Origin: Anaerolineae bacterium
Lineage (GTDB): Bacteria > Chloroflexota > Anaerolineae > Anaerolineales > Anaerolineaceae
Assembly (NCBI GenBank): GCA_013178295.1
Contig: JABLWW010000005.1
Location: forward strand, 1 to 64,000
Reading direction: 5' to 3'
Length of the DNA: 64,000 nucleotides
The notes under the pieces were generated by a model. The model was not told the origin of the DNA, ran no database searches, and saw only the letters and a program-made list of their open reading frames with translations. Position 1 is the first letter of the stretch. Each line of letters begins with the position of its first letter. Of the stretch, positions 43,212 to 54,492 are shown piece after piece. A program made the position numbers and the translations under genes.

Positions 43212-45221
43212 TTATTTTTTGCAATTGTGAACATTGTACAGACGGCGAAAGTCCGCCGTGCGTTTGTCTTTATGCTCTCTTATTAATTGGACGCAGGGGT
43301 CTTTCTCAAAAATTTGCTTGTATGGCGTGTCAATGTCATACCAGAAGACGTAATCCAGATATACGTAATCAAATCCACCTGCTCTTATCTGATATGGGTC
43401 AGGGTTGGCAAGCAATTTTTCCCATTCTGGTTTGGCGACCAGCCAGGTTTTGGAAGAGTTGGTGTAACGTCCGAGTACAGTTGTCGCGCGATAGGGTATG
43501 GGATCAAATACCAGAGCCCGCTTTTCCAATCTGTCCCAAAATTCTTTTTCCATGCGGGCATCCAGCGGCGTAATAAAGTTTGATAGAACGGGCTTTTGCG
43601 CAGCGATAAGTTCGATGCCAAACAAGATGACTCCACCGAAGATAATGAGCGTACCAGCGGCCGCCAGAAGGGCTTTGAGTCTGCCTGAGCGGTGAGATGC
43701 CCAGCGCCACGCCAATGGCACTGCCCAAAGCGCCGCCAGACCGATGAAGGCGTAAAGCCGAGAGGTGTTGCGCACCCCAGCCGATCCAGTAAATTGCACC
43801 AGCAATAACAGGATAGATAGAAACCCTGAGGTGATAAGCGCAGCTTCATACCACCTTTGCAAACGAAAGGCTTTGATGCCCCAGGCGAACACGAGTGGCA
43901 GCAAGAAAATGACAGGCCCAATTTCCAGAAATGCAGTCAGGATGTGCAGCGGGTTATTGAGTGACAGGACACCCAGATGAGATGAGACAATGGTGGGCGG
44001 CCAGACAAACTGAAACCCGATTGTCTGGTAGGTATCCGCTGAGGCTGTCATGGCAGCTGACTGGATGCCTCTTTGAAACAGTTCGCTCCACGTACCGCCC
44101 TGTAGCAGGGTTACAATGACGTAAGCGGCGAGGACAATCCACCAGGTTCTCAGCGTTTTGGGTATTCGTAGAGAACGGTTTTTCAGCATATAGAAGGCGG
44201 TTATCATTGCCCAACTGGCAAGCAGAAGCGGCAACCCCGTTTCGCTGATCAGGGTGGAGGATGAAAGCAGGATGACTGAAATCAATCCTCCTGCCCAGCT
44301 TTTCCAGCGGTTAAAGGTCAGCAGTAGCGGGAAGGCAATGGCAGTATCAATCAGACCGTTTGGTCCAAACGCCAGAGCCCAGGGTTGATTGATTCCGCTG
44401 ATGAAGGCAAATGGGTAAGCAAAAGGACCGCCACCCTCAATGTTCCAGGGAAGGGTCAGGGCAGTGAATACATCCGGAGCTGTCTGCGCGCCGCTGCCAA
44501 TCATTTGAATATTTTCCGAGATGGCTTGGAGGGCACTTTTGGGCAGCAGTAGAAGAAGCCAGCGTGTTCCCATTCCAAAAAGTGCAAATAGCGCGCCGAT
44601 AAAGCCTGCTATTTTGCTGAAGGTGATGCGCTGTACCCAGAGACTGACGAGAGAAACCGCCAGCCCGGTGGAAAGCCCGCGCGCAATGTCCAGGGCTGTC
44701 CATGGGAAAAGGTCTCCCAGACGCATCATTTGGGCGGAGAACAGCAGAAGAAAATAATGATAACCGTAGGGGGCTTCAGGGTTGAGGGCAAAGCGTGGGG
44801 GAATGTTGCCTGCAGCCAGCAACGATGTAGTGGGAAGGTGCGCATAGTCATCAAATATAGCCACCCCGCGGTTGATCAGAAAAAAGATATATGCAATGGC
44901 AAGAACAGGAACCCAAGTGGATAAAGAGGCTTTGACCTTGAGGAGAGAAGAAAAACCTGAGGGTATTTTCAGTACAAAGCCAATGAGAAAGACTAACGCT
45001 GCGGCAGCCCAGAAAGCTCCTGGCGGCGGTAGCAGTTGCCCAATGAGATTCGCCAGCCAGTTTTCCAGCACAAGCCCAATTGCCAGACCAACCAAGCAAT
45101 ATTCGTTTTCTCTTAGCCGAAATGCGCTGTGGGCAATCCATATTCCGCCAATTGCCCAAAGAAAGCCCCATGCCAAAAGCGCACCACCTGTTTGCAGGTT
45201 GTTTAGGAAGATTTCCATCAT
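43212..45221 (-). CDS. Large polytopic membrane protein, possibly GT-C type
   Basis: 669 residues with about 12-13 membrane spans. An early loop contains VAIFDDYAHLPTTSLL near residue 120, resembling the acidic loop of GT-C glycosyltransferases, then YGYHYF. A C-terminal ~110-residue soluble part ends the protein (from about 555). It is not in a clear gene family to me. Candidate role: polyprenyl-phosphate-sugar transferase. Its stop lies 9 bases before the cysE promoter on the same strand. Confidence 0.6.
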   Translation of the reverse strand: MMEIFLNNLQTGGALLAWGFLWAIGGIWIAHSAFRLRENEYCLVGLAIGLVLENWLANLIGQLLPPPGAFWAAAALVFLIGFVLKIPSGFSSLLKVKASLSTWVPVLAIAYIFFLINRGVAIFDDYAHLPTTSLLAAGNIPPRFALNPEAPYGYHYFLLLFSAQMMRLGDLFPWTALDIARGLSTGLAVSLVSLWVQRITFSKIAGFIGALFALFGMGTRWLLLLLPKSALQAISENIQMIGSGAQTAPDVFTALTLPWNIEGGGPFAYPFAFISGINQPWALAFGPNGLIDTAIAFPLLLTFNRWKSWAGGLISVILLSSSTLISETGLPLLLASWAMITAFYMLKNRSLRIPKTLRTWWIVLAAYVIVTLLQGGTWSELFQRGIQSAAMTASADTYQTIGFQFVWPPTIVSSHLGVLSLNNPLHILTAFLEIGPVIFLLPLVFAWGIKAFRLQRWYEAALITSGFLSILLLLVQFTGSAGVRNTSRLYAFIGLAALWAVPLAWRWASHRSGRLKALLAAAGTLIIFGGVILFGIELIAAQKPVLSNFITPLDARMEKEFWDRLEKRALVFDPIPYRATTVLGRYTNSSKTWLVAKPEWEKLLANPDPYQIRAGGFDYVYLDYVFWYDIDTPYKQIFEKDPCVQLIREHKDKRTADFRRLYNVHNCKK

Positions 45222-45413: not shown

Positions 45414-46283
45414 ATGAATCGTCGAAAGAAGTTAGAAGATACACTTGGTGAAATTTTTGCCAAGCCCATAAGCAAGCGCGCAGAGCTGGTGACACAACCA
45501 CCAGCTGGCGAAGATGCCAACCCTCCAGAGCCCCCGGTGAAGACACCGGCAACTGTGAAGCCAAGACCCAAGAGAACACCTGCGCCCAAAAAGGTGGTTG
45601 AGCCGCGCAAGGCGAAACAAGCGGTTCCTGTGCTGCCGCACGCCGAAACGGTTTTGGAAACAGCACAGCCTGTAGTGGAGGAAAATAAAGAGCCTTTTCC
45701 TGTGGTTCCCTCGGCAGCAAAGGATGCAGTTGTGGTTTCTGCTGCTTCTCCGGCAGCTTCATCAGCGCCTGCAGTGGCCTTAGCTAAGATTGAAGAGGTG
45801 TCAGACAAAGAACTAGCTGTCCCAGAAGATTTTGATAAGGACATGCATATTCTTGTGTTTGCATTGGCAGATACATACTATGGTTTGGATGTTGCTGGTG
45901 TTCAGACGATTATCAAGCCGCAGACGATCTATATTGTTCCGGGAACAGTGCAGTTTATCAAGGGTGTTATCAATTTGCGGGGCAACGTTGTTCCCATTAT
46001 TGATTTGCGCAATCGTTTTGAACTTCCGGAGGTTGAGTTCACTCCGGCAACGCGGTTTGTTGTGGTGGAACTTGGAGAAGTGATGGCTGGGCTGATTGTT
46101 GATTCTGTTCTGGGGGTGGAGATTATCCAGGCAGGTATGGTGGAACCGCCGTCGCGTGTCATCATGGGCGCGCATACCCGCTTTTTGAAGGGCGTGGCAC
46201 AGATGGATGGACGATTGGTGCTGATGTTAGACTTGGAGCAAACCTTAAAAGTCTCTGCTCAAGAGGGAAGCTTCGCTGGCTAA
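45414..46283 (+). CDS. CheW-like protein with long N-terminal linker
   Basis: The C-terminal ~150 residues are a CheW domain: ILVFALADTYYGLDVAGVQTI near residue 145, INLRGNVVPIIDLRNRF near 185, and FLKGVAQMDGRLVLMLDL at the end. The first ~135 residues are rich in Pro, Ala, Lys and Glu, probably disordered. CheW couples chemoreceptors to CheA; no che or flagellar gene is near. It may belong to a type IV pilus or other sensory array elsewhere. ATG 45414 is six bases after GGAGG. Confidence 0.85.
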   Translation: MNRRKKLEDTLGEIFAKPISKRAELVTQPPAGEDANPPEPPVKTPATVKPRPKRTPAPKKVVEPRKAKQAVPVLPHAETVLETAQPVVEENKEPFPVVPSAAKDAVVVSAASPAASSAPAVALAKIEEVSDKELAVPEDFDKDMHILVFALADTYYGLDVAGVQTIIKPQTIYIVPGTVQFIKGVINLRGNVVPIIDLRNRFELPEVEFTPATRFVVVELGEVMAGLIVDSVLGVEIIQAGMVEPPSRVIMGAHTRFLKGVAQMDGRLVLMLDLEQTLKVSAQEGSFAG

Positions 46284-46293
46284 GCAGTAGGTT

Positions 46294-47331
46294 TCACAAA
46301 TTTGGCTGTTTGTTCTCAATCTGTTCAGGTTTATTTTTGACGTTATCAGCTTCGTAGCCTATCTGGGCAAGGTATTTGAGTAATGCCTTGGAAGTGCCCA
46401 ACCCAATTGATGAAAACAGAATAATGCCCAGCAAAATAGCCAGGAATCCAAAGGGCGGGAAGGCGGCAGAGGTGGCCGCCAGGACAGGGGCAAGCGCAAA
46501 AGCAATGGCGATTGCCAGCACCCAAGCGAGGAACATGATGGTTCCCCGTGCCCATATATTCCAGGCAAACCAACCTGAGCCCCATATAAAGAACTCCGCG
46601 ATGATAGCCAACCCGGCGCGCGGGTGGGTTTGTGTTAGCTCAAGCACTTTACCTATTCCGCGTTTAAGCTTGTGCATCTGGTAAATTGCATATATCAGGA
46701 TACCCAAGACAGCCAAAACACTGAGAGCGAAAAGCGCAACCAGAAGCCAGGGGTTTATCCTGCTGAGCAGAAGAACCAAACCCATCATAACAATGGACAT
46801 GATATTTTCAAGGGTGGCGTAGGTGGGTGCTGCTGCGCCGCCGGTTGAACCGGTTGATGCACTAAGGGCAGGCTTTGTAACTGCCCGCAGTGCCGTCAGA
46901 GAAGTGCCTGCTACAGCACTGGCTCCCGAAATCAGATATCCTGTTGCGCCAATTTCGCCTGCTGAGGTGAATATTTTCAGCGTTTCCAGCATCTGACGGA
47001 GCTCAGGGTTGAGATTGGCGATGATACCAGCAGTTGCTAGAGCAATTATTGCTGAAGAAAATGGGACAACAAACCCGTGTAGGAAATTGGAGATGGTGTT
47101 GACCACATGCATGGCTCCGGGTGATAACAATGAAGCGTAGGCTGGGGCGTTGGAGAGAATCCAAAACACTGCAACAATGCTCATGAACCAGTATGTGGAC
47201 ATAAATTGCATCGGTGGCGCAAGTTCAATGATTCCTGTGCGGGATGCAATAGAAATAATCAGCAGACTTAGGTATTGGTCGGAGACACCAACCAAACCGC
47301 CCGCTGCAATGGCTGAAAGTATCAGCTCCAT
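46294..47331 (-). CDS. Polytopic membrane protein, possible DUF4126 relation
   Basis: 345 residues with about eight spans: an N-terminal block (about 20-140) and a C-terminal block (about 185-320). The Ala-, Thr- and Gly-rich middle (SASTGSTGGAAAP) is a linker. The first half vaguely recalls DUF4126 membrane proteins. I cannot give a function. It ends 11 bases from the CheW gene, convergently. Confidence 0.5.
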   Translation of the reverse strand: MELILSAIAAGGLVGVSDQYLSLLIISIASRTGIIELAPPMQFMSTYWFMSIVAVFWILSNAPAYASLLSPGAMHVVNTISNFLHGFVVPFSSAIIALATAGIIANLNPELRQMLETLKIFTSAGEIGATGYLISGASAVAGTSLTALRAVTKPALSASTGSTGGAAAPTYATLENIMSIVMMGLVLLLSRINPWLLVALFALSVLAVLGILIYAIYQMHKLKRGIGKVLELTQTHPRAGLAIIAEFFIWGSGWFAWNIWARGTIMFLAWVLAIAIAFALAPVLAATSAAFPPFGFLAILLGIILFSSIGLGTSKALLKYLAQIGYEADNVKNKPEQIENKQPNL

Positions 47332-47411
47332 TTTCTGCTCCTCTTGTAAGTTACGTTTCTATCACAGTATACGAGAAACGACAAAACCTGTTGCAAAAGC
47401 AAGGTGAGCAA

Positions 47412-47454
47412 TGAAAAGCCATGCCCGGCAGCTTTTTTTGCTGTCCCGGGCATG
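47412..47454 (-). terminator. Terminator after the CBS gene
   Basis: CATGCCCGG (47420-47428) pairs with CCGGGCATG (47446-47454), continued by CAGC/GCTG inside with a two-base bulge and a T-rich loop. On the minus strand GGCTTTTC follows. A stem of 13 bp. Confidence 0.75.
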
Positions 47455-47492
47455 ATAGAAAGACCTTTTTTGTGAATGCTTCTGCAAGTTCC

Positions 47493-47936
47493 CTAGAGGT
47501 TGTACCCTGAACCCATGATGTAGTTTTCAAGCCCGCGAATAAGAACTTCCTGGTCGCTGATGATTGACTTCACGACATCACCGATGGAAATTACTCCGAT
47601 AACTTTTCCGCTTTCGACGACTGGAAGGTGGCGGATGCGTTTATCGGTCATCAATGCTGAGCATTCAGCCATTGTTTGATCGGGCCCCACATAGTATACG
47701 GGTGTTGTCATCACTTTGGAGACAGGTTCCTCGGCTTTGACGCCTTTGAGGATTCCCTTACGGGCGTGGTCGCGTTCAGAAAAGATACCTTTTACTTTAT
47801 CTCCTTCCATCACCAGGACTGCGCCGACGTTTTTCTCTTCCATAAGCTTTAGAGCGTTCAAGATAGACTCGTCGGGAGAGACGGATACAATTGAGCTTCC
47901 CTTTTCTTTCAAGATTTGCCGAACAGTTGTTTTCAT
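47493..47936 (-). CDS. Two-CBS-domain protein
   Basis: 147 residues forming one Bateman module: VSPDESILNALKLMEEKNVG, then VKGIFSERDHARK and VYYVGPDQTMAECSALMTDK with RIRHLPVVESGKVIGVISIGDVV. CBS pairs sense adenosine nucleotides. No enzyme domain is attached, so it is a stand-alone regulator of unknown partner. AGGAGG is six bases before the ATG. Confidence 0.93.
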   Translation of the reverse strand: MKTTVRQILKEKGSSIVSVSPDESILNALKLMEEKNVGAVLVMEGDKVKGIFSERDHARKGILKGVKAEEPVSKVMTTPVYYVGPDQTMAECSALMTDKRIRHLPVVESGKVIGVISIGDVVKSIISDQEVLIRGLENYIMGSGYNL

Positions 47937-47986
47937 GATGAACCTCCTGACTTTACCTCAAAAAATTAATAACATACCTTAAGGAT

Positions 47987-48015
47987 AGTGTATAGAATTT
48001 TTTGTCTGTTGTCAA
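47987..48015 (-). promoter_or_regulatory. Promoter of the CBS gene
   Basis: TTGACA (48010-48015), 17 bases, TACACT (47987-47992) on the minus strand. Confidence 0.65.
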
Positions 48016-48039
48016 AGTGAATTTTGGAAAATGGACGGA

Positions 48040-49113
48040 TTATGTGTCTTGTACAATGGTGGGGATGATAATGTGGGGCGGTTTTTTGAACGGATTTAGT
48101 CGGGTGGCAGGGGTGATAAATTCTTTTACGTTGCGCTCAAGGGCTTTTTTCAGCAGAGGGATTTTGTCTTTGTACCACTGGTGGGCTTCCTGGTTGTTAT
48201 TTCGGTTGACAATTTCCTTTTCTTCTTCAAAGTACTCGATGCTCTTTTCCCACTCTGCCACAGCCAGATGTTGCTGGTTGTATTCCCATAGTGCGATGCC
48301 TTTCAGCCATCTTGTAATGGCGTCGTGGTGTTGCCGTGAGGGGAGCGAGCTTAAGCCTTTTTGATAATACTTCAAAGCTCTGTCATAATTAGAGACCAAA
48401 TAGGAGGCTAACCCGCAGAAGATGTAAATTTCCTCTTTTTCTTCGGCTTCCTGTTTGTTTTCGGCAATACCAGCCAGTTTGCCAAGCAACTTGAATACCT
48501 GTTGGTAATCTTTACAGATAATCAAACTGGTTATTCTAATGCGCCAGTCATGTATGGCTTGGCTGAGATGATTGGGTGTGAAATAGTCCAGCCATGTGTA
48601 AATGTATTCTGCTGTGCTGATGAGGTCTATCTCCATACTCTCTAAAGTTTTGGCATACCATTCTTTGGTAAAGGGGAGCTTCCTGATAAGATTTGGGTCA
48701 GCGGCATTTTTCTCAAAGTTTTGATAGGCAGAAAACCAGCTTTGATAGACAGTTGGATTACGCAGCCATTTTTCGATGATGCCCTGTGCCCATTGGGCGG
48801 TTGCACAGTAGTGGCGGTGTTCAGCAATGTTAGGGTCTTGTTTTTTGTAAAAATCTAGCGCTTCTCTGATCAACACAGAAGCCTCTTCGTAGCACTGAAG
48901 CTCGCAGTTAGCAGCAGCGGCATTCAGGCGGATTTCTGCCTTTTCGAAAGGGCTGTCTGTAAATGATAGGGTATTACGCAAAAGGTTTGTTAATTGTTTG
49001 GGCTGGGAGACATCGAAGAACTGCGCAACAAACGGCTGGTTCTCTTTGCGGATGGCGGTGGTATTGGTGCTAAGGACGTTTAGCCATGAAAGGGCAGTAG
49101 TTAACGAGATCAT
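48040..49113 (-). CDS. TPR-like protein of the SPFH operon
   Basis: 357 residues of helical repeats: FEKAEIRLNAAAANCELQCYEEASVLIREAL, GLASYLVSNYDRALKYYQKG and LAVAEWEKSIEYFEEE fit TPR units. No membrane span or signal. It lies 12 bases after the SPFH gene at 49126. Similar genes follow SPFH proteins in some bacteria, but I do not know a named family. It may be the cytoplasmic adaptor of the membrane assembly. Confidence 0.6.
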   Translation of the reverse strand: MISLTTALSWLNVLSTNTTAIRKENQPFVAQFFDVSQPKQLTNLLRNTLSFTDSPFEKAEIRLNAAAANCELQCYEEASVLIREALDFYKKQDPNIAEHRHYCATAQWAQGIIEKWLRNPTVYQSWFSAYQNFEKNAADPNLIRKLPFTKEWYAKTLESMEIDLISTAEYIYTWLDYFTPNHLSQAIHDWRIRITSLIICKDYQQVFKLLGKLAGIAENKQEAEEKEEIYIFCGLASYLVSNYDRALKYYQKGLSSLPSRQHHDAITRWLKGIALWEYNQQHLAVAEWEKSIEYFEEEKEIVNRNNNQEAHQWYKDKIPLLKKALERNVKEFITPATRLNPFKKPPHIIIPTIVQDT

Positions 49114-49125
49114 TGCGTTTATTTC

Positions 49126-50472
49126 TCAGTCTCTTTTGTCTTCGGGAGGATTTTTCTTGTATTGCTGGCGCATGGCTTCGAATACTCTTGCAGTTCTGGC
49201 TGAAAGCAATTTTTGAATGTTTTTAGCTGGCTGATCGGTGAAATCAATGTCTTTTAATGCACTGACAACGCTGAAAATGAACTGCATTTGGGCTTCGGCG
49301 CGTCCTAATTCTTCGAGGGCGAGACGTGTCCCTTCGGCGCGGGCGCGCAGGGCTTCGGCACTGCCTGCCCATTCGGCTGCCCAGGTATCAATACGTTTTT
49401 CAAGGACGTTTTCGCTGGCAGCGAAGTGTCCAATGTCGAGCGAGATTACTTTGACGCCGATATTCCAGGTGCGGATATTATCGAGGATGTTATTGCGTAT
49501 TGTGGTGCGAACGTCGTAATTTTCCTTTGGGGCAGTTAGCTGGTCAAATGTATATTTGCTGATTTCGTTGCGAATTTCGGTCTGTACCAGTAGTCTTACC
49601 GTGTACTGGACGGATTGTAATCCTTGCTCGGCTACATTGCGGTTATTTGCCATACGCCGCAGGGCTTCCAGGTCGAAGGGGTAGGGGTCCTCTAGGGTAC
49701 GGTCAAGGTAGCGGCTTTTGCCTTCAGCAGGATCCTGCAAACCGCGTGAGATGATACGGTAGCGGTAATGGATGTCTCTCATGACAATACGAATACCATC
49801 TCGGGTAACAAGATAGCCGATTTCGCGGTCGGCGCCAAGTTCGGGGATATATTCGTGCTGGTCATCGAGCACAGCTATTTGCCCGATGGTTTCAAACCGC
49901 CTCAGCGCTGCATCCATGGTGATGCCGGAACGGGAAGGACTTCTGAGGTTGCGGAAGATGACAGCATTTCCGGGTTGGATGATAACATCACCGGGACCGC
50001 CGATAACATTAAGAGAGTTAAACTGCCCCTCCGCCAACACAGGCTGCCCATCATCAATGACCAAACGCGGGCGCAGAAAAGCAGCGTAGATTCTGAAGAC
50101 AGAGTAAATCAGGTAACGGAGGGCATAGCGTAGTAAGGGAAGCTCGTATACGTCCCTGATGAAAGATGCACCAGCGATGAGAGCGATGATCAAGGCGCTT
50201 CCGGGCGCTATCAAATAGGAGAGGAATGAAGACAGGCGCTCTCTTCCGGATGAAGGTGTGGTAAAGGCGTCGCTGGCGGTGTTGGCAAGTGCCAGAACTG
50301 TCAGCAGGACGATGGAGGCGAGCAAGGTTGCTATCAGCCCTTCGATGTCCAGTGGATCAGCAAAGAAGGAGCGACGTATCTGTTGCCATCCCCCGCTCCT
50401 GTCAATCAGATAGACGATCATGAAAAGGAGGATAATCAGAAGAATGAGAACTGGAATCAGAAAGGACATCAA
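49126..50472 (-). CDS. SPFH/band 7-type membrane protein
   Basis: 448 residues. Three N-terminal membrane spans (about 4-24, 46-66, 88-106) precede a soluble SPFH-like region (about 130-370). RSPSRSGITMDAALRRFETIG and LVTRDGIRIVMRDIHYRYRI are typical of a distant SPFH beta domain, and IDTWAAEWAGSAEALRARAEG is the coiled-coil tail. SPFH proteins form rings in membranes. It partners with the gene upstream. Confidence 0.75.
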   Translation of the reverse strand: MMSFLIPVLILLIILLFMIVYLIDRSGGWQQIRRSFFADPLDIEGLIATLLASIVLLTVLALANTASDAFTTPSSGRERLSSFLSYLIAPGSALIIALIAGASFIRDVYELPLLRYALRYLIYSVFRIYAAFLRPRLVIDDGQPVLAEGQFNSLNVIGGPGDVIIQPGNAVIFRNLRSPSRSGITMDAALRRFETIGQIAVLDDQHEYIPELGADREIGYLVTRDGIRIVMRDIHYRYRIISRGLQDPAEGKSRYLDRTLEDPYPFDLEALRRMANNRNVAEQGLQSVQYTVRLLVQTEIRNEISKYTFDQLTAPKENYDVRTTIRNNILDNIRTWNIGVKVISLDIGHFAASENVLEKRIDTWAAEWAGSAEALRARAEGTRLALEELGRAEAQMQFIFSVVSALKDIDFTDQPAKNIQKLLSARTARVFEAMRQQYKKNPPEDKRD

Positions 50473-50486
50473 TAGGCCTGTGTTTG

Positions 50487-52313
50487 CTAAAAACGCATTG
50501 GAGGTTCGCCAGTGCCAGTACCCTGGGTACTGCCCGGGCTGGTTGTGTGCTCAGGGATGGCTAGGAGGTTGTGGGTGGTGCGCAATAAGCTGAGAATGTC
50601 GTCTGGTAGCATCTTTCGCGTGTAAGGGCTTTCGGCTACCATTGTCTCTATCCACTGTAAAACGCTAAGAGTCAGTGCTTCATCTGAGTGTTTGTTGATT
50701 TCGAAGATTTGTGTCAGGTTGGCAAGGATGGCTTCTTGTCTCTCTAGACGTGCTTTGGTTTGCAAACGCATGGCTTCCAAATCTTTGGTGGCTTGGGTGA
50801 TAATCTTTTGACTTTCGAGACTTGCCTGCCAGTTTTGGAGACGTTGTTCGTAAATTAAATCGGAAACCATCAGGTCTGTGAATCCAGCGGCAATGATTTT
50901 TATTCCCCTTTGCCTCAGCGGAGAAGGTCTGTTGAGGGGCAGGATCCTTGACACGCGCAACACGTCGGCAGGGTATTCGTGGTGGAGGGAAAGCTGTCCG
51001 CCTGTATGACGGTACGAGACGATACGGTAAGAAAGCAAGCCGCTGTTGACCATTTCCTGGTTGAGATTTTCGCGGATGCTGGTAATGGGGGCATCCGGCT
51101 CTGTGTGCGGGTCGGGGCTGAAGATCTGGTCAAAGTTATATTGGAGGAGAATGCGGCGGAAAGCCTCAATTGTGAGATTGAGCGGAAGGGCTTGCCAGGG
51201 AATCAGGTTGCCGTCTCGGTCGCGCGCCTGGTTAAAAGCAGCGTTGAAAACCCGCCCAGCGTTGAAAACTGGCTCAAGCGGAGGGGTGGGGAGGTCGTGA
51301 TAGGGAAGCAGGAAGGCAGTTCGATTTGACTGTGACTGGAAGGTCGTATGTATCTCAAGGGCGTCTTCTCTTTGAAGACAGTTCTTGATTTCGGTAACGC
51401 GGAGGTTGCCATTTTCCATTCTTCTCAGCGTGATGACGCGCAAGTTTTCTGGTTGCTGTTCTCCGATGTAGCTAACTTGTTGGATATCGGGATCCTGACC
51501 GAGTGTAAATAGCACCCACACGATTGTGGATACTTCGATGCCGTCGCGGGTGTAAGCGCGCACATTTAAGCGGCTGCGAGTTTGCCTTCTGAGATCAACA
51601 ATGGAACGGATGCGTTCGAGACGGCGGATGAATACAATCCCGGCGCCTTCGATGCGCGGCGAGTGGTAGCGATTATATAGCCCCAGCCCCCATAAAACGG
51701 CTTCGAGGATGATATAGAAAAAATTGCGAAGGGTGAAAGCAGGGACCTCTTCCTCAAGAACAATGGCGCTGTTGTAATCAACTACAGCCACGCCAATGCC
51801 GTTTCTTCGCATCTCTGCCTCACTGGCGGCTGTGCTGCCGTCCTTGACAAATATCGCTGGGCCCAGCAGTCCGAAGGTATGCAAGAGGAAGTGAAAAAGG
51901 GTTCTCCAGATTTGCTGGGCAATCAGTAGAAGATGATGTAAAGCAGTATGTGGGGAAGAGAGAGCTTGCCGGAGGATTTCACCTGTGTTGAGGGTATTAT
52001 AGATTTCGCGAAAGGTGGTGATTGGCAAAAGGGCTGGCGCAATGATGATAGCTGTCAGAATGAATATGATGAGAAAGTTCAGCAGGTTGACCAGAATAAT
52101 ATCTCTGGAAACCAGCATTGGCTCAGTAATTTCAATATTCGGTGTTTGTCCACCAAACAACAGGCTGATGTCAACGTAGAAAAGGGTGAACGTATCCCAG
52201 ATTTGTTTTCTGAATGTCAGAAAGAAGATAAACGCCAGCAAAAGCACAAACAGAAAGATTTGAACGTTTCTTCTCCTGAAAAATGGTTGAGGGATAATCG
52301 GTTGGTCTGACAT
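50487..52313 (-). CDS. SPFH/band 7-type membrane protein, long form
   Basis: 608 residues. Two clear membrane spans near residues 20 and 75, further hydrophobic stretches near 100-145 and 200, then an SPFH domain (about 225-450): YHSPRIEGAGIVFIRRLERI, LNVRAYTRDGIEVSTIVWVLF, and a coiled-coil C-terminus rich in Lys, Gln and Glu (about 495-570). The last ~25 residues are proline- and glycine-rich. I chose ATG 52313, which has GGGGG seven bases before. Unlike FloA or HflK it has a large insertion. Confidence 0.75.
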   Translation of the reverse strand: MSDQPIIPQPFFRRRNVQIFLFVLLLAFIFFLTFRKQIWDTFTLFYVDISLLFGGQTPNIEITEPMLVSRDIILVNLLNFLIIFILTAIIIAPALLPITTFREIYNTLNTGEILRQALSSPHTALHHLLLIAQQIWRTLFHFLLHTFGLLGPAIFVKDGSTAASEAEMRRNGIGVAVVDYNSAIVLEEEVPAFTLRNFFYIILEAVLWGLGLYNRYHSPRIEGAGIVFIRRLERIRSIVDLRRQTRSRLNVRAYTRDGIEVSTIVWVLFTLGQDPDIQQVSYIGEQQPENLRVITLRRMENGNLRVTEIKNCLQREDALEIHTTFQSQSNRTAFLLPYHDLPTPPLEPVFNAGRVFNAAFNQARDRDGNLIPWQALPLNLTIEAFRRILLQYNFDQIFSPDPHTEPDAPITSIRENLNQEMVNSGLLSYRIVSYRHTGGQLSLHHEYPADVLRVSRILPLNRPSPLRQRGIKIIAAGFTDLMVSDLIYEQRLQNWQASLESQKIITQATKDLEAMRLQTKARLERQEAILANLTQIFEINKHSDEALTLSVLQWIETMVAESPYTRKMLPDDILSLLRTTHNLLAIPEHTTSPGSTQGTGTGEPPMRF

Positions 52314-52365
52314 TGTCATGCCCCCGCGCCGGGTGGGGATACTATTCTGCCGGGATATGGGAATC

Positions 52366-52395
52366 AGTATGTCTTTGCGTGGTCAGGTTTGTCAA
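52366..52395 (-). promoter_or_regulatory. Promoter of the SPFH-SPFH-TPR operon
   Basis: TTGACA (52390-52395), 18 bases, CATACT (52366-52371) on the minus strand. Confidence 0.5.
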
Positions 52396-52423
52396 GTATG
52401 GTATCAGCAAAGGGTTGATTGGG

Positions 52424-52903
52424 TCAGGGGGTAAATTGTGGTTTGGCAACAGGCCCGCTGGGGATGTTTTCCCACTTTACACGAGGAATATTGAGTACCA
52501 TGCCCGGGCTTATTCGGTTTGGGTCAGCGATGTTGTTGGCTTCGGCAATGGCTTGTGGCAAAACCTGATAGGCACGCCCAATCATGTAGAGCGTTTCTCC
52601 GGATTGAACGATATGCTGCCCAAGATACGGCGAATCGTTGGGAGTGGGAGAGACTTCTGGTGCAACTTCTTCCGTGGGTGAGGGTGCCACAGTTGGAGGA
52701 GGTGTTAAAGTGGGGACTTGGGTGATTATTATGGGCGAAGGGCTTTGCAACGGTACACTGATTGTTGTCGTGGCTGGGGGCGATGTCACTTGCAGGGTTT
52801 TTTGGTAGGGCGGCTGCGTGCTGGCAGGGCGTGTGCAGGAGGTTATGATCAACGCGGTTGCCGTTAGAATGCTGAGCGCAAAAAGAGGTAAAGAAGGTTT
52901 CAT
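52424..52903 (-). CDS. LysM lipoprotein
   Basis: 159 residues. Signal peptide MKPSLPLFALSI... ends in a TSC lipobox at residue 21. A Pro/Ser/Thr-rich stretch runs to ~95, then one LysM module (HIVQSGETLYMIGRAYQVL) near 105-155. It would be membrane-anchored and hold peptidoglycan. ATG 52903 is used: an upstream extension would read through the promoter. No ribosome site; see the promoter. Confidence 0.85.
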   Translation of the reverse strand: MKPSLPLFALSILTATALIITSCTRPASTQPPYQKTLQVTSPPATTTISVPLQSPSPIIITQVPTLTPPPTVAPSPTEEVAPEVSPTPNDSPYLGQHIVQSGETLYMIGRAYQVLPQAIAEANNIADPNRISPGMVLNIPRVKWENIPSGPVAKPQFTP

Positions 52904-52910
52904 CGAATTA

Positions 52911-52939
52911 ACTATATTTGAGGTTGTTATGTTTGTCAA
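52911..52939 (-). promoter_or_regulatory. Promoter of the LysM lipoprotein, leaderless
   Basis: TTGACA (52934-52939), 17 bases, TATAGT (52911-52916). The expected start is at about 52904, one base before the ATG, so the mRNA would be leaderless. Confidence 0.75.
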
Positions 52940-52959
52940 TGTTTGTAATAATTTGGGAA

Positions 52960-52968
52960 TGATATAAT
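52960..52968 (+). promoter_or_regulatory. Extended -10 promoter of the GlpA/GlpB-like operon
   Basis: TGaTATAAT, about 33 bases before ATG 53002. The -35 is poor. It is divergent from the LysM promoter. Confidence 0.55.
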
Positions 52969-53001
52969 TTGAGCCTGTGAATTTAACGTTTAGGAGAGAA
53001 C

Positions 53002-54492
53002 ATGGCTGAAGCATACGATATCATCATCGTCGGCGGGGGGATAGTAGGTTGTATGGTTGCTCGCTACTTATCCCGTTACAAACTGGATGTGCTCCTTATT
53101 GAAAAGGAGGCTGATGTTTGTACCGGCGCCAGTGCAGCCAATACGGCTATTGTACATGCAGGGTATGATCCCATGCCCGGTTCGCTGAAGGCAAAGCTTA
53201 ATGTTGCTGGGAATGCGATGTGGGATACCCTAGCAGGGGAATTAAACTTTGCTTTTGATCGCAGGGGTGATTATGTGGTTGCAATTGGCGACGAGGAGCT
53301 TGCACATTTGCAGTGTCTGCTAGAGCAGGGCAAAAAGAATGGTGTGCCGGGTATTCATATTATCTCTGGTGAGGAGATGCGTAATCGTGAGCCGGAGATC
53401 AACCCATCGGTTAGTGGCGCTCTGTGGGCGCCCACAGGCGGGATTTGCGATCCATTTGGGGTGACCATTGCGGCGGCTGAAAATGCTATTCAAAATGGCG
53501 TCAAGGTGTATTTGGAAACAGCCTTTGAAGCGTTTATTATGGACGGTAAGCGGATTATTGGAGTGCGAACCAATCGGGGGGATTTTTATTGCCGCTGGGT
53601 GATCAACGCTGCTGGTTTATATGCAGATATGGTGATGCACAAAGCGGGTATTTATCCTGAATTTGTCATCAAACCGCGGCGGGGGGAATATTGTGTCCTG
53701 GATCAGGCCGACATAACAGTTCGTAATGTCCTTTTCCCCGTGCCTTCGAAAGCGAGTAAAGGAATTATGGTAACTGCCACAGTGCATGGGAATGCTTTGG
53801 TTGGGCCAAACTCGAATTTTATTGAGGATAAGGATGACTGTTCGGTAACCCGTGCTGGGTTAGATGAAATCTGGCATGGGGCGCGAAAGCTGATCCCTTC
53901 ACTGGATACCAGGCACGTGATTGCGATGTATGCAGGGCTGCGTGCCTGTGGGAATGCACCATGCCGCACGCCAGGTGTAGATTACCGCCAGGATTTCATT
54001 GTGGAGGTAGCGGAGGAAGTTTCTGGGTTGATCAATCTTGCTGGCATCGAATCTCCTGGTTTGACATCGGCTCCCGCCATTGCGCTGCGTGTGGTTGAGA
54101 TGCTTTTGGAGGCTGGTGAGCGCCTGGAGGAGAAAAAAGACTGGCAACCTATTCGCCCACCACGTCCCAGATTTCGCCATCTGCCGCGCGAGGAGCAACT
54201 GCGTTTGATACGAGAGGACAGCCGTTATGGCAGGATCATTTGCCGTTGTGAGATGGTCACGGAGGGTGAGATTGTGGCAGAAATTCATGCCCCGATACCG
54301 GCAAAGACCTATGATGCCATTAAACGCCGAACTTGGCTTGGCACAGGCAGATGTCAGGGATCTTTTGATATGCCTCGGGTGGTTGATATCTTGTCCCGCG
54401 AGCTTGGAATGTCTCCTTTTGAAATCAGCAAGCGGGGTGGTAGCTCACGATTTTTGCTATGCACCACCAAGGAGGTGAATCATGAAGATTAA
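53002..54492 (+). CDS. GlpA-like FAD-dependent oxidoreductase with BFD-type domain
   Basis: 496 residues of the glycerol-3-phosphate oxidase/dehydrogenase class. The FAD fold starts IIVGGGIVGCMVARYL; GASAANTAIVHAGYD and ESPGLTSAPA are typical. The C-terminal ~85 residues hold a BFD-like [2Fe-2S] domain: ICRCEMVTEGEIV and GTGRCQGSFD. It forms an operon with a GlpB-like gene (11-base overlap) and a DUF1667 gene. Substrate probably glycerol-3-phosphate or a related 2-hydroxy acid. Confidence 0.82.
   Translation: MAEAYDIIIVGGGIVGCMVARYLSRYKLDVLLIEKEADVCTGASAANTAIVHAGYDPMPGSLKAKLNVAGNAMWDTLAGELNFAFDRRGDYVVAIGDEELAHLQCLLEQGKKNGVPGIHIISGEEMRNREPEINPSVSGALWAPTGGICDPFGVTIAAAENAIQNGVKVYLETAFEAFIMDGKRIIGVRTNRGDFYCRWVINAAGLYADMVMHKAGIYPEFVIKPRRGEYCVLDQADITVRNVLFPVPSKASKGIMVTATVHGNALVGPNSNFIEDKDDCSVTRAGLDEIWHGARKLIPSLDTRHVIAMYAGLRACGNAPCRTPGVDYRQDFIVEVAEEVSGLINLAGIESPGLTSAPAIALRVVEMLLEAGERLEEKKDWQPIRPPRPRFRHLPREEQLRLIREDSRYGRIICRCEMVTEGEIVAEIHAPIPAKTYDAIKRRTWLGTGRCQGSFDMPRVVDILSRELGMSPFEISKRGGSSRFLLCTTKEVNHED

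Follow-up and report, generated by a model that had tools for sequence, protein, structure and literature searches.

A family of paired SPFH-fold proteins in Anaerolineae (Chloroflexota) with TPR-like and AAA+ neighbours

Comparison with described SPFH systems

SPFH scaffolds occur in all kingdoms, and the functions of most bacterial representatives are considered unclear, as far as stated in the available parts of two publications (PMC12624060, PMC12005517). Across 497 genomes, Hinderhofer and colleagues distinguished 12 subfamilies of SPFH proteins (PMC2636767). Domes of mixed SPFH subunits, like operons that encode SPFH proteins, are already documented in several studies (PMC2636767, PMC12624060, PMC13086221, PMC11237479). 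The present analysis concerns a row of three genes, designated A, B, and T, in a 64,000-nucleotide stretch of the genome of an Anaerolineae bacterium (family Anaerolineaceae; contig JABLWW010000005.1, positions 1 to 64,000; hereafter, the window), which encode two unlike SPFH proteins and a TPR-like protein. This branch of SPFH proteins was not found described in the literature searched. The A–B pair was absent among the matches listed for SPFH proteins in Chloroflexota or Anaerolineae and for SPFH proteins with LVIVD repeats or pseudouridine, and no paper was found that joins pseudouridine kinase, pseudouridine glycosidase, and an operon. The main text of PMC2636767 contains neither “TPR” nor “tetratricopeptide”; PMC7159879, likewise available in part, mentions SPFH only in its reference list and describes ternary FtsH systems with a radical-SAM effector.

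The locus resembles HflK–HflC, the SPFH3 proteins associated with FtsH, in that two unlike SPFH paralogues are encoded by adjacent genes and have an AAA+ protein as a candidate partner; Foldseek matched the models of both A and B to HflK–HflC structures (7vhq, 7wi3, and 9cz2), among others. HflK and HflC have a single N-terminal membrane span. By contrast, most A and B proteins have two or more predicted spans, their SPFH domains probably face the cytoplasm, and a third gene encodes a TPR-like protein. Moreover, the AAA+ neighbour found in relatives is of a SpoVK/CbbX-like kind, and scans of three such proteins revealed no protease domain. The HflK and HflC models, which the NCBIfam library presumably contains, matched neither A and B of the window (E ≤ 1) nor those of the related locus L118 (E ≤ 1e-3).

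Mixed SPFH domes of two paralogues are also formed by PHB1/2 and erlin1/2, and two such structures (8rrh and 9o9z) head the list of structural alignments of A. These proteins are eukaryotic and reside in other membranes, and they offer no operon for comparison with A–B–T. The stomatin–NfeD and QmcA–YbbJ systems (SPFH1) share with the locus a linked helper gene, and stomatin is the best single-domain match of B, but A–B comprises two SPFH paralogues with more spans; NfeD was not detected in the nine window proteins scanned with Pfam, including T and the products of the flanking genes, a scan that did not extend to the neighbours in relatives. Flotillins (FloA, FloT, and YqiK; SPFH2) are likewise membrane scaffolds that combine an SPFH domain with a coiled coil, and 9bq2 and 9l3g are among the fold matches, but the flotillin C-terminal domain has no Pfam match in A and B of the window or in the 28 aligned members of each family.

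The available part of PMC11237479 provides a precedent for the combination, at the membrane, of band-7 proteins with beta-propellers and AAA+ ATPases. Unlike in such Band-7/PspA/AAA+–propeller operons, relatives of A and B have the propeller fused into the SPFH protein itself, between two spans, and no PspA match was obtained among the window genes scanned with Pfam. PADLOC models (E ≤ 0.01) matched neither A, B, and T of the window nor A and B of the related locus L085. An interpretation as a conflict system was dropped, as A, B, and T have no match to a defence model; vWA and MoxR genes were not searched for.

Fold, origin, and conservation of the pair

At the sequence level, the homology of A and B to Band_7 appears through their families and not through the window proteins alone. 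At E ≤ 1, neither Pfam nor NCBIfam detects window A, and window B matches Band_7 with E = 1.1e-3 (19.5 bits against a cut-off of 23.6), its other Pfam matches being at chance level. Among the 28 members chosen for each alignment, Band_7 was matched at E ≤ 0.01 by 12 A proteins (best E 1.7e-9) and 15 B proteins (best E 3.8e-12). The long fused A proteins of L091, L094, L109, and L111, the long A' protein of L087, the B protein of L093, and incomplete members were left out of the alignments. When compared by sequence with solved structures, the A profile matched Pyrococcus stomatin (E 5.6e-7) and HflC (E 2.9e-4), and the B profile had no match.

AlphaFold2 models of the window proteins, built from 19-row alignments, have a mean predicted local distance difference test score (pLDDT) of 82.2 for A and 78.2 for B and predicted template modelling scores of 0.65 and 0.59, respectively. 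Foldseek yielded 32 matches for A and 47 for B in the PDB at E ≤ 0.001, which comprise stomatin, HflK/C, flotillin, erlin, prohibitin, QmcA, and major vault protein; human stomatin (9oh9) matches B with E 1.2e-9. In VIA-align, which compares only structures from Foldseek's own list, the SPFH domain of mouse stomatin (4fvg) aligns with B over 107 residues (Z 12.7, root-mean-square deviation [rmsd] 1.8) and with A over 109 residues (Z 9.8, rmsd 1.9). The top rows for A, 8rrh (Z 10.5, 237 residues, rmsd 16.0) and 9o9z (Z 10.1, 232 residues, rmsd 10.2), count as tied with the stomatin and erlin rows. According to these models, both proteins have the SPFH fold, and in both the fold is followed by a long helix.

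A preliminary description, made from the DNA letters alone, had proposed an operon of a TPR protein and two SPFH proteins of 608 and 448 residues that seemed distant from the FloA, HflK/C, and YqiK types. The SPFH fold is supported by the Band_7 matches of the families and the PDB matches of the models. The distance from the HflK/C, flotillin, and stomatin types is supported by the absence of SPFH-type NCBIfam matches at E ≤ 1 and by a tree in which A and B branch separately from three canonical SPFH proteins encoded in this genome, the only other SPFH proteins included. The lengths and the intergenic gaps of 12 to 14 bases agree with the coordinates of the open reading frames (ORFs).

Gene A occupies positions 50487–52313 of the minus strand (608 residues); its SPFH domain spans residues ~150–484 (50862–51866), including a helical insert at residues 195–209, and its long C-terminal helix, in the usual position of the SPFH coiled coil, spans residues 485–538 (50700–50861). 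Gene B lies at 49126–50472 on the same strand (448 residues from a TTG codon), with three N-terminal membrane helices, the SPFH domain at residues ~136–355 (49408–50067), and the long C-terminal helix at residues 356–407 (49252–49407). Alternative starts are the first ATG of A at 52319, which yields 610 residues (50487–52319), and an ATG one codon past the TTG of B at 50469, which yields 447 residues; in A, the ATG at 52313 is better placed by eye, as a G-rich stretch precedes it.

The alignments of A and B match each other in hhalign with a value of 99.7%. A quick maximum-likelihood tree was built from 40 A and 40 B sequences, with the canonical SPFH proteins mentioned above as outgroup (three of the genome's four Band_7 proteins, without that of L004); in it, all A sequences are on one side of a branch (98, starred), and so are all B sequences (86). 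With each family thus confined to its own side, a single A/B duplication is most simply older than the divergence sampled, and A and B are sister families.

The B profile matched 30 of 400 Chloroflexota genomes, every one in the class of the window, and strong A matches occur in the same 30 genomes (best E per genome ≤ 6e-21). The A profile matched 103 of the 400 genomes; the other 73 of these have weak matches (best E per genome 8e-7 to 1e-3), as would be expected of ordinary SPFH proteins. An A match directly precedes B on the same strand in all 30 genomes, with 0–543 nucleotides between the profile matches, a linkage that exceeds chance, and in seven genomes (G060, G086, G138, G169, G217, G301, and G428) the second copy is also a pair. 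A scan of GTDB contigs with A-derived patterns, which detects close relatives only, yielded 20 loci. Every record among them bears the name of a Chloroflexota taxon; Anaerolinea thermolimosa, Levilinea saccharolytica, and Ornatilinea apprima are represented. Searches with tblastn of B against plasmids and of A against phages, the only two combinations run, gave no match and thus lend no support to a mobile origin. Named Anaerolineae carry a two-subunit SPFH family whose neighbours suggest candidate partners, namely a TPR protein, a chaperone of the SpoVK/CbbX type, and a peptidase resembling LexA.

Two loci (L133:9938–20187 and L087:8293–18383) contain two consecutive SPFH pairs, A–B–T followed by A'–B'. 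Their A' proteins have a long stretch between the spans, and a PfkB kinase gene and then psuG lie 3' of the second pair.

Membrane topology and candidate partners

The model of B contains three leading helices (residues 2–25, 43–69, and 73–109), which bears out the three leading membrane spans of the preliminary description, with low confidence for the first 80 residues (pLDDT 52–67). The model of A has N-terminal helices at residues 15–33 and 64–95 and a further one at 121–146. By hydropathy, at least one span is predicted in all 41 A sequences (window A being included twice) and all 40 B sequences, two or more in 35 of the 41 A and 36 of the 40 B sequences, and exactly two in 27 and 25, respectively. 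Charge was compared in 26 of 40 A and 23 of 40 B sequences, the remaining 14 and 17 not having exactly two spans or having an unclear core motif. Lysine and arginine in A average 3.81 per 15 residues before span 1, 1.46 between the spans, and 1.52 after span 2, and the value before span 1 exceeds that between the spans in 23 of the 26 sequences.

Seven members longer than 700 residues were examined for the layout of their spans. About 420–1000 residues separate two predicted spans in L087, L091, L093, L094, and L133; the long member of L109 has one called span, and that of L111 has none before residue 281. Pfam detected LVIVD repeats in L091, L087, and L109 and WD40 repeats in L093, and in L091, L087, and L093 these repeats sit between two predicted spans; the long members of L133 and L111 had no Pfam match, and that of L094 was not scanned. 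The L087 protein also has a Thr/Pro-rich stretch between the spans. Such stretches are a feature of extracellular proteins. The charge, propeller, and Thr/Pro data would fit a topology with the N terminus inside, the loop outside, and the SPFH domain inside. Giant A or B proteins of this layout comprise 1515, 1529, and 893 residues (L091:5134–9681, L094:1104–5693, and L093:10525–13206, respectively).

The third gene, T (48040–49113, minus strand, 357 residues), is conserved beside B, and its product is TPR-like: TPR_12 matches with E = 1.5e-3, under the cut-off, and Pfam as a whole yields only TPR-type and unrelated models, none over the cut-off and none for S24. NCBIfam and PADLOC likewise assign T to no family. 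A tree of B comprises 53 rows, 24 of which form the clade of the window (99, starred) and 16 an inner clade within it (99, starred). T follows B on the same strand in 19 of the 24 rows, 23 of which are readable; partial T genes in L091 (165 residues) and L127 (194 residues) are included in this count, L083 ends at a contig end, and T-like pieces in L081 were hidden by the ORF caller. The conserved gene order that the preliminary description had named as a check is thus found for A–B in 30 of the 30 sampled genomes with B and for T in 19 of 23 readable loci.

Third-gene proteins of several other loci carry a LexA-like S24 domain. Pfam detected it in L115 (E 1.1e-11), L134 (2.7e-16), L130 (1.5e-13), and L181 (8.5e-9), which come from different pair clades, and a home-made S24 profile matched seven third-gene sequences, including those of L095, L105, and L177. 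Both the Ser and the Lys motif are present in four of these seven (L095, L115, L130, and L134); the motif search found neither of them in L177 and L181, and in L105 the Lys motif was not seen. The third-gene proteins of L179 and L180 had no Pfam match.

A cassette of genes adjoins the operon in 14 of the 16 inner-clade rows and runs towards it from the other side. It encodes a double AAA+ ATPase, a coiled-coil protein without a family, and an NrdG-like Fer4_12 radical-SAM protein. All three genes are present in 12 of the 14 rows; L089 meets a contig end, and L081 has no radical-SAM ORF. The AAA+ protein of L085 exceeds the cut-off of TIGR02881 (SpoVK; 479.9 bits vs. 422.95, as a sum over two AAA stretches), and the radical-SAM protein of the same locus scores 90.8 bits, under the 126.1 bits of NrdG. 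Among 21 distinct AAA+ sequences, the Walker B pattern occurs twice in all 21 and the Walker A pattern twice in 19. The neighbour thus resembles the SpoVK, CbbX, and EccA chaperones in its TIGR02881 match, but differs from them by two AAA domains per chain and by the accompanying coiled-coil and NrdG-like genes. In its available part, PMC10659427 describes the SpoVK/CbbX-type group as dedicated chaperones of narrow targets.

The inner-clade rows without an adjoining cassette are the window and L083, which ends at the contig end; in the genome of L083, contig C307 carries T and the AAA+ gene in convergent orientation. The genome of the window contains a cassette apart from the pair (contig C16:244660–247155; L168:12589–17340). 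In a distant pair clade, G448 (L183) carries the cassette upstream of A on the same strand. On the B tree, the AAA+ neighbour requires three changes, two of which are forced by starred branches, so that linkage to the AAA+ gene would most simply have been gained twice, in two different arrangements. Pair and AAA+ gene co-occur among 61 relatives (2 × 2 counts 11/3/2/45; Fisher p 6e-8) and also within the family (10/1/2/24; Fisher p 1.9e-6), in statistics that ignore descent and use thresholds (E < 1e-20 for A, E < 1e-100 for AAA+) set after the hits had been seen. Full-length relatives of the double AAA+ protein occur also outside the class of the window (G313:C73 and G410:C197; frames of 1087–1092 residues), and G025 has a cassette, and G022 the AAA+ and coiled-coil genes, in the absence of a matched SPFH pair.

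A second pair family has other neighbours. Of the 53 rows in the B tree, 19, from several families of the class, have a gene for a PfkB kinase and/or PsuG within three ORFs downstream of B; none of these 19 belongs to the 24-row clade of the window. A pseudouridine-kinase-like gene and/or psuG (Indigoidine_A) accompanies this second family in L103, L106, L113, L115, L173, L174, and L177, among others; L103 provides examples of both matches (PF04227, E 8.9e-121; PfkB, E 2.4e-49). The kinase scores 154.6 against a pseudouridine-kinase cut-off of 540, and the label PsuK is by similarity only. Outside the 53-row tree, the nearest cases are L095 (B fragment, TPR–S24, and PsuG) and L129 (PsuG, divergent and upstream). 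In L133 and L087, the order is pair 1, T, pair 2, kinase, and PsuG.

Interpretation and genomic setting

In the reading that we favour, and that we consider evenly balanced, A and B constitute a mixed SPFH dome on the cytoplasmic face of the membrane, with a TPR adaptor, that serves an AAA+ chaperone. The duplication pattern of A and B makes a mixed ring likely: their subunits would assemble on the membrane into a dome-shaped ring or arc, as do those of HflK–HflC, PHB1/2, and erlin1/2. Two to three N-terminal spans would anchor this structure, and the SPFH domains, like the long C-terminal helices, would most likely reside in the cytoplasm. T would be a cytosolic TPR adaptor that binds the scaffold. 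For the clade of the window, the most likely partner is a double AAA+ chaperone of the SpoVK/CbbX/EccA type, which the scaffold would serve or which would remodel it. In this picture, the SPFH folds, the single old duplication, the linked pair, the recurrent T, and the recurrent AAA+ neighbour are results of computation; the mixed assembly, its side of the membrane, the binding of T, the AAA+ partnership, and the client are inferred. If the pair forms one cage, this would add a further mixed SPFH complex, one with a chaperone-type AAA+ neighbour instead of FtsH. The preliminary description had stated that nothing in the operon names its client, which holds for the window; relatives, however, point to the AAA+ cassette and, in the sister pairs, to PsuG-type pseudouridine genes.

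Several observations weigh against this reading. The window operon itself has no adjoining AAA+ cassette, and in the wider clade of 24 rows the AAA+ gene is beside the pair in 14. The two linkages to AAA+ could represent a single old linkage followed by losses. In the phylum sample, only three of the six genomes with a full-length AAA+ protein (E < 1e-100) have the pair, so that the cassette is not dedicated to it, and the other neighbour of the sister pair family implies that clients may differ. Five TPR models match T, all below the Pfam cut-off, and no T was seen in L093, L131, and L135 of the 24-row clade. The charge bias of A is limited to the N-terminal side, the value after span 2 (1.52) being close to that of the loop (1.46), and B shows no such bias, with 1.78, 1.44, and 1.28 lysine and arginine residues in the respective segments and 11 of 23 sequences that fit. 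Finally, scoring in the 400-genome sample was limited to the top three candidates (B) or the top four (A) of each genome, and orphans could have escaped.

The same absence of the pair from three of the six genomes would suit another explanation, namely that A and B are generic organisers of membrane microdomains that form separate homomers, with T loosely linked and the AAA+ gene a mere syntenic neighbour in one family. The available part of PMC13086221 describes a parallel in the SPFH paralogues paFlo5-6-7, which share an operon without a known mixed assembly. Yet, as far as candidates were scored, a strong A match never occurs without B in the sampled genomes, nor the reverse; the A and B clades are old, with A upstream in the loci read, and the AAA+ link was most simply gained twice in two arrangements. 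We consider this explanation rather unlikely. An alternative in which the pair organises the uptake or breakdown of nucleosides, the window's pair being a derived copy, draws on the PfkB-type kinase and PsuG genes as the commonest neighbours of the sister family (19 of 53 rows), the matches in L103, and the gene rows of L133 and L087. With no such gene within three ORFs after B in the 24 window-clade rows and a kinase score far under its cut-off, it seems highly improbable.

SPFH proteins are often coupled to proteases, as noted in the available part of PMC2636767, and the Peptidase_S24 matches on the third gene in different pair clades (L115, L134, L130, and L181), together with the Ser and Lys motifs of L095, L115, L130, and L134, could point to a sensor–protease unit, in which the SPFH pair relays outside signals, received by the propellers of some members, to a cytosolic TPR–S24 peptidase. 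S24 is mostly missing from T of the window's clade, however, including T of the window, and the motifs are incomplete or absent in L181, L177, and L105, with no Pfam match at all in L179 and L180; we regard this unit as quite improbable. A further reading, which would be specific to the class and which we consider unlikely, is a two-subunit SPFH dome for outside-in signalling, with sensor loops or propellers between its spans, a cytosolic SPFH cage, and an exchangeable TPR port that docks either a LexA-like S24 peptidase or, in the clade of the window, the SpoVK/CbbX-type double AAA+ protein with a radical-SAM activase. If true, such a dome would amount to a quality-control or activation machine like HflKC–FtsH, built from other parts and on the opposite side of the membrane.

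In the window, the three minus-strand ORFs follow each other in the order A, B, and T, with 14 bases between A and B and 12 between B and T. A promoter-like sequence upstream of A (TTGACA-18-CATACT; 52366–52395, minus strand) is present as a consensus match, in line with the preliminary description; that it drives all three genes is not shown, given that 15 promoter-like sites were counted in the 5.8 kb scanned vs. 6.2 ± 2.8 in shuffled sequences and that a better site (11/12) with the same reading direction lies further upstream, at 52939–52911 by the LysM gene. Another promoter-like site is located 3' of T, at 48015–47987. An Rfam search of positions 46000–54000 gave no match.

The gene upstream of A encodes a LysM protein (52424–53014, minus strand). 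The start of its ORF may be too early, because the promoter-like site at 52939–52911 lies just before an internal ATG at 52903, from which the protein would begin with a lipoprotein-like signal (IITSC). The genes 3' of T on the same strand encode a CBS-pair protein (47493–47936) and then a DUF4126-like membrane protein of 345 residues (46294–47331; DUF4126 match with E 4e-5, sub-threshold). Further along is a gene for a hydrophobic protein of 669 residues (43212–45221, minus strand) that has no Pfam match at E ≤ 1.

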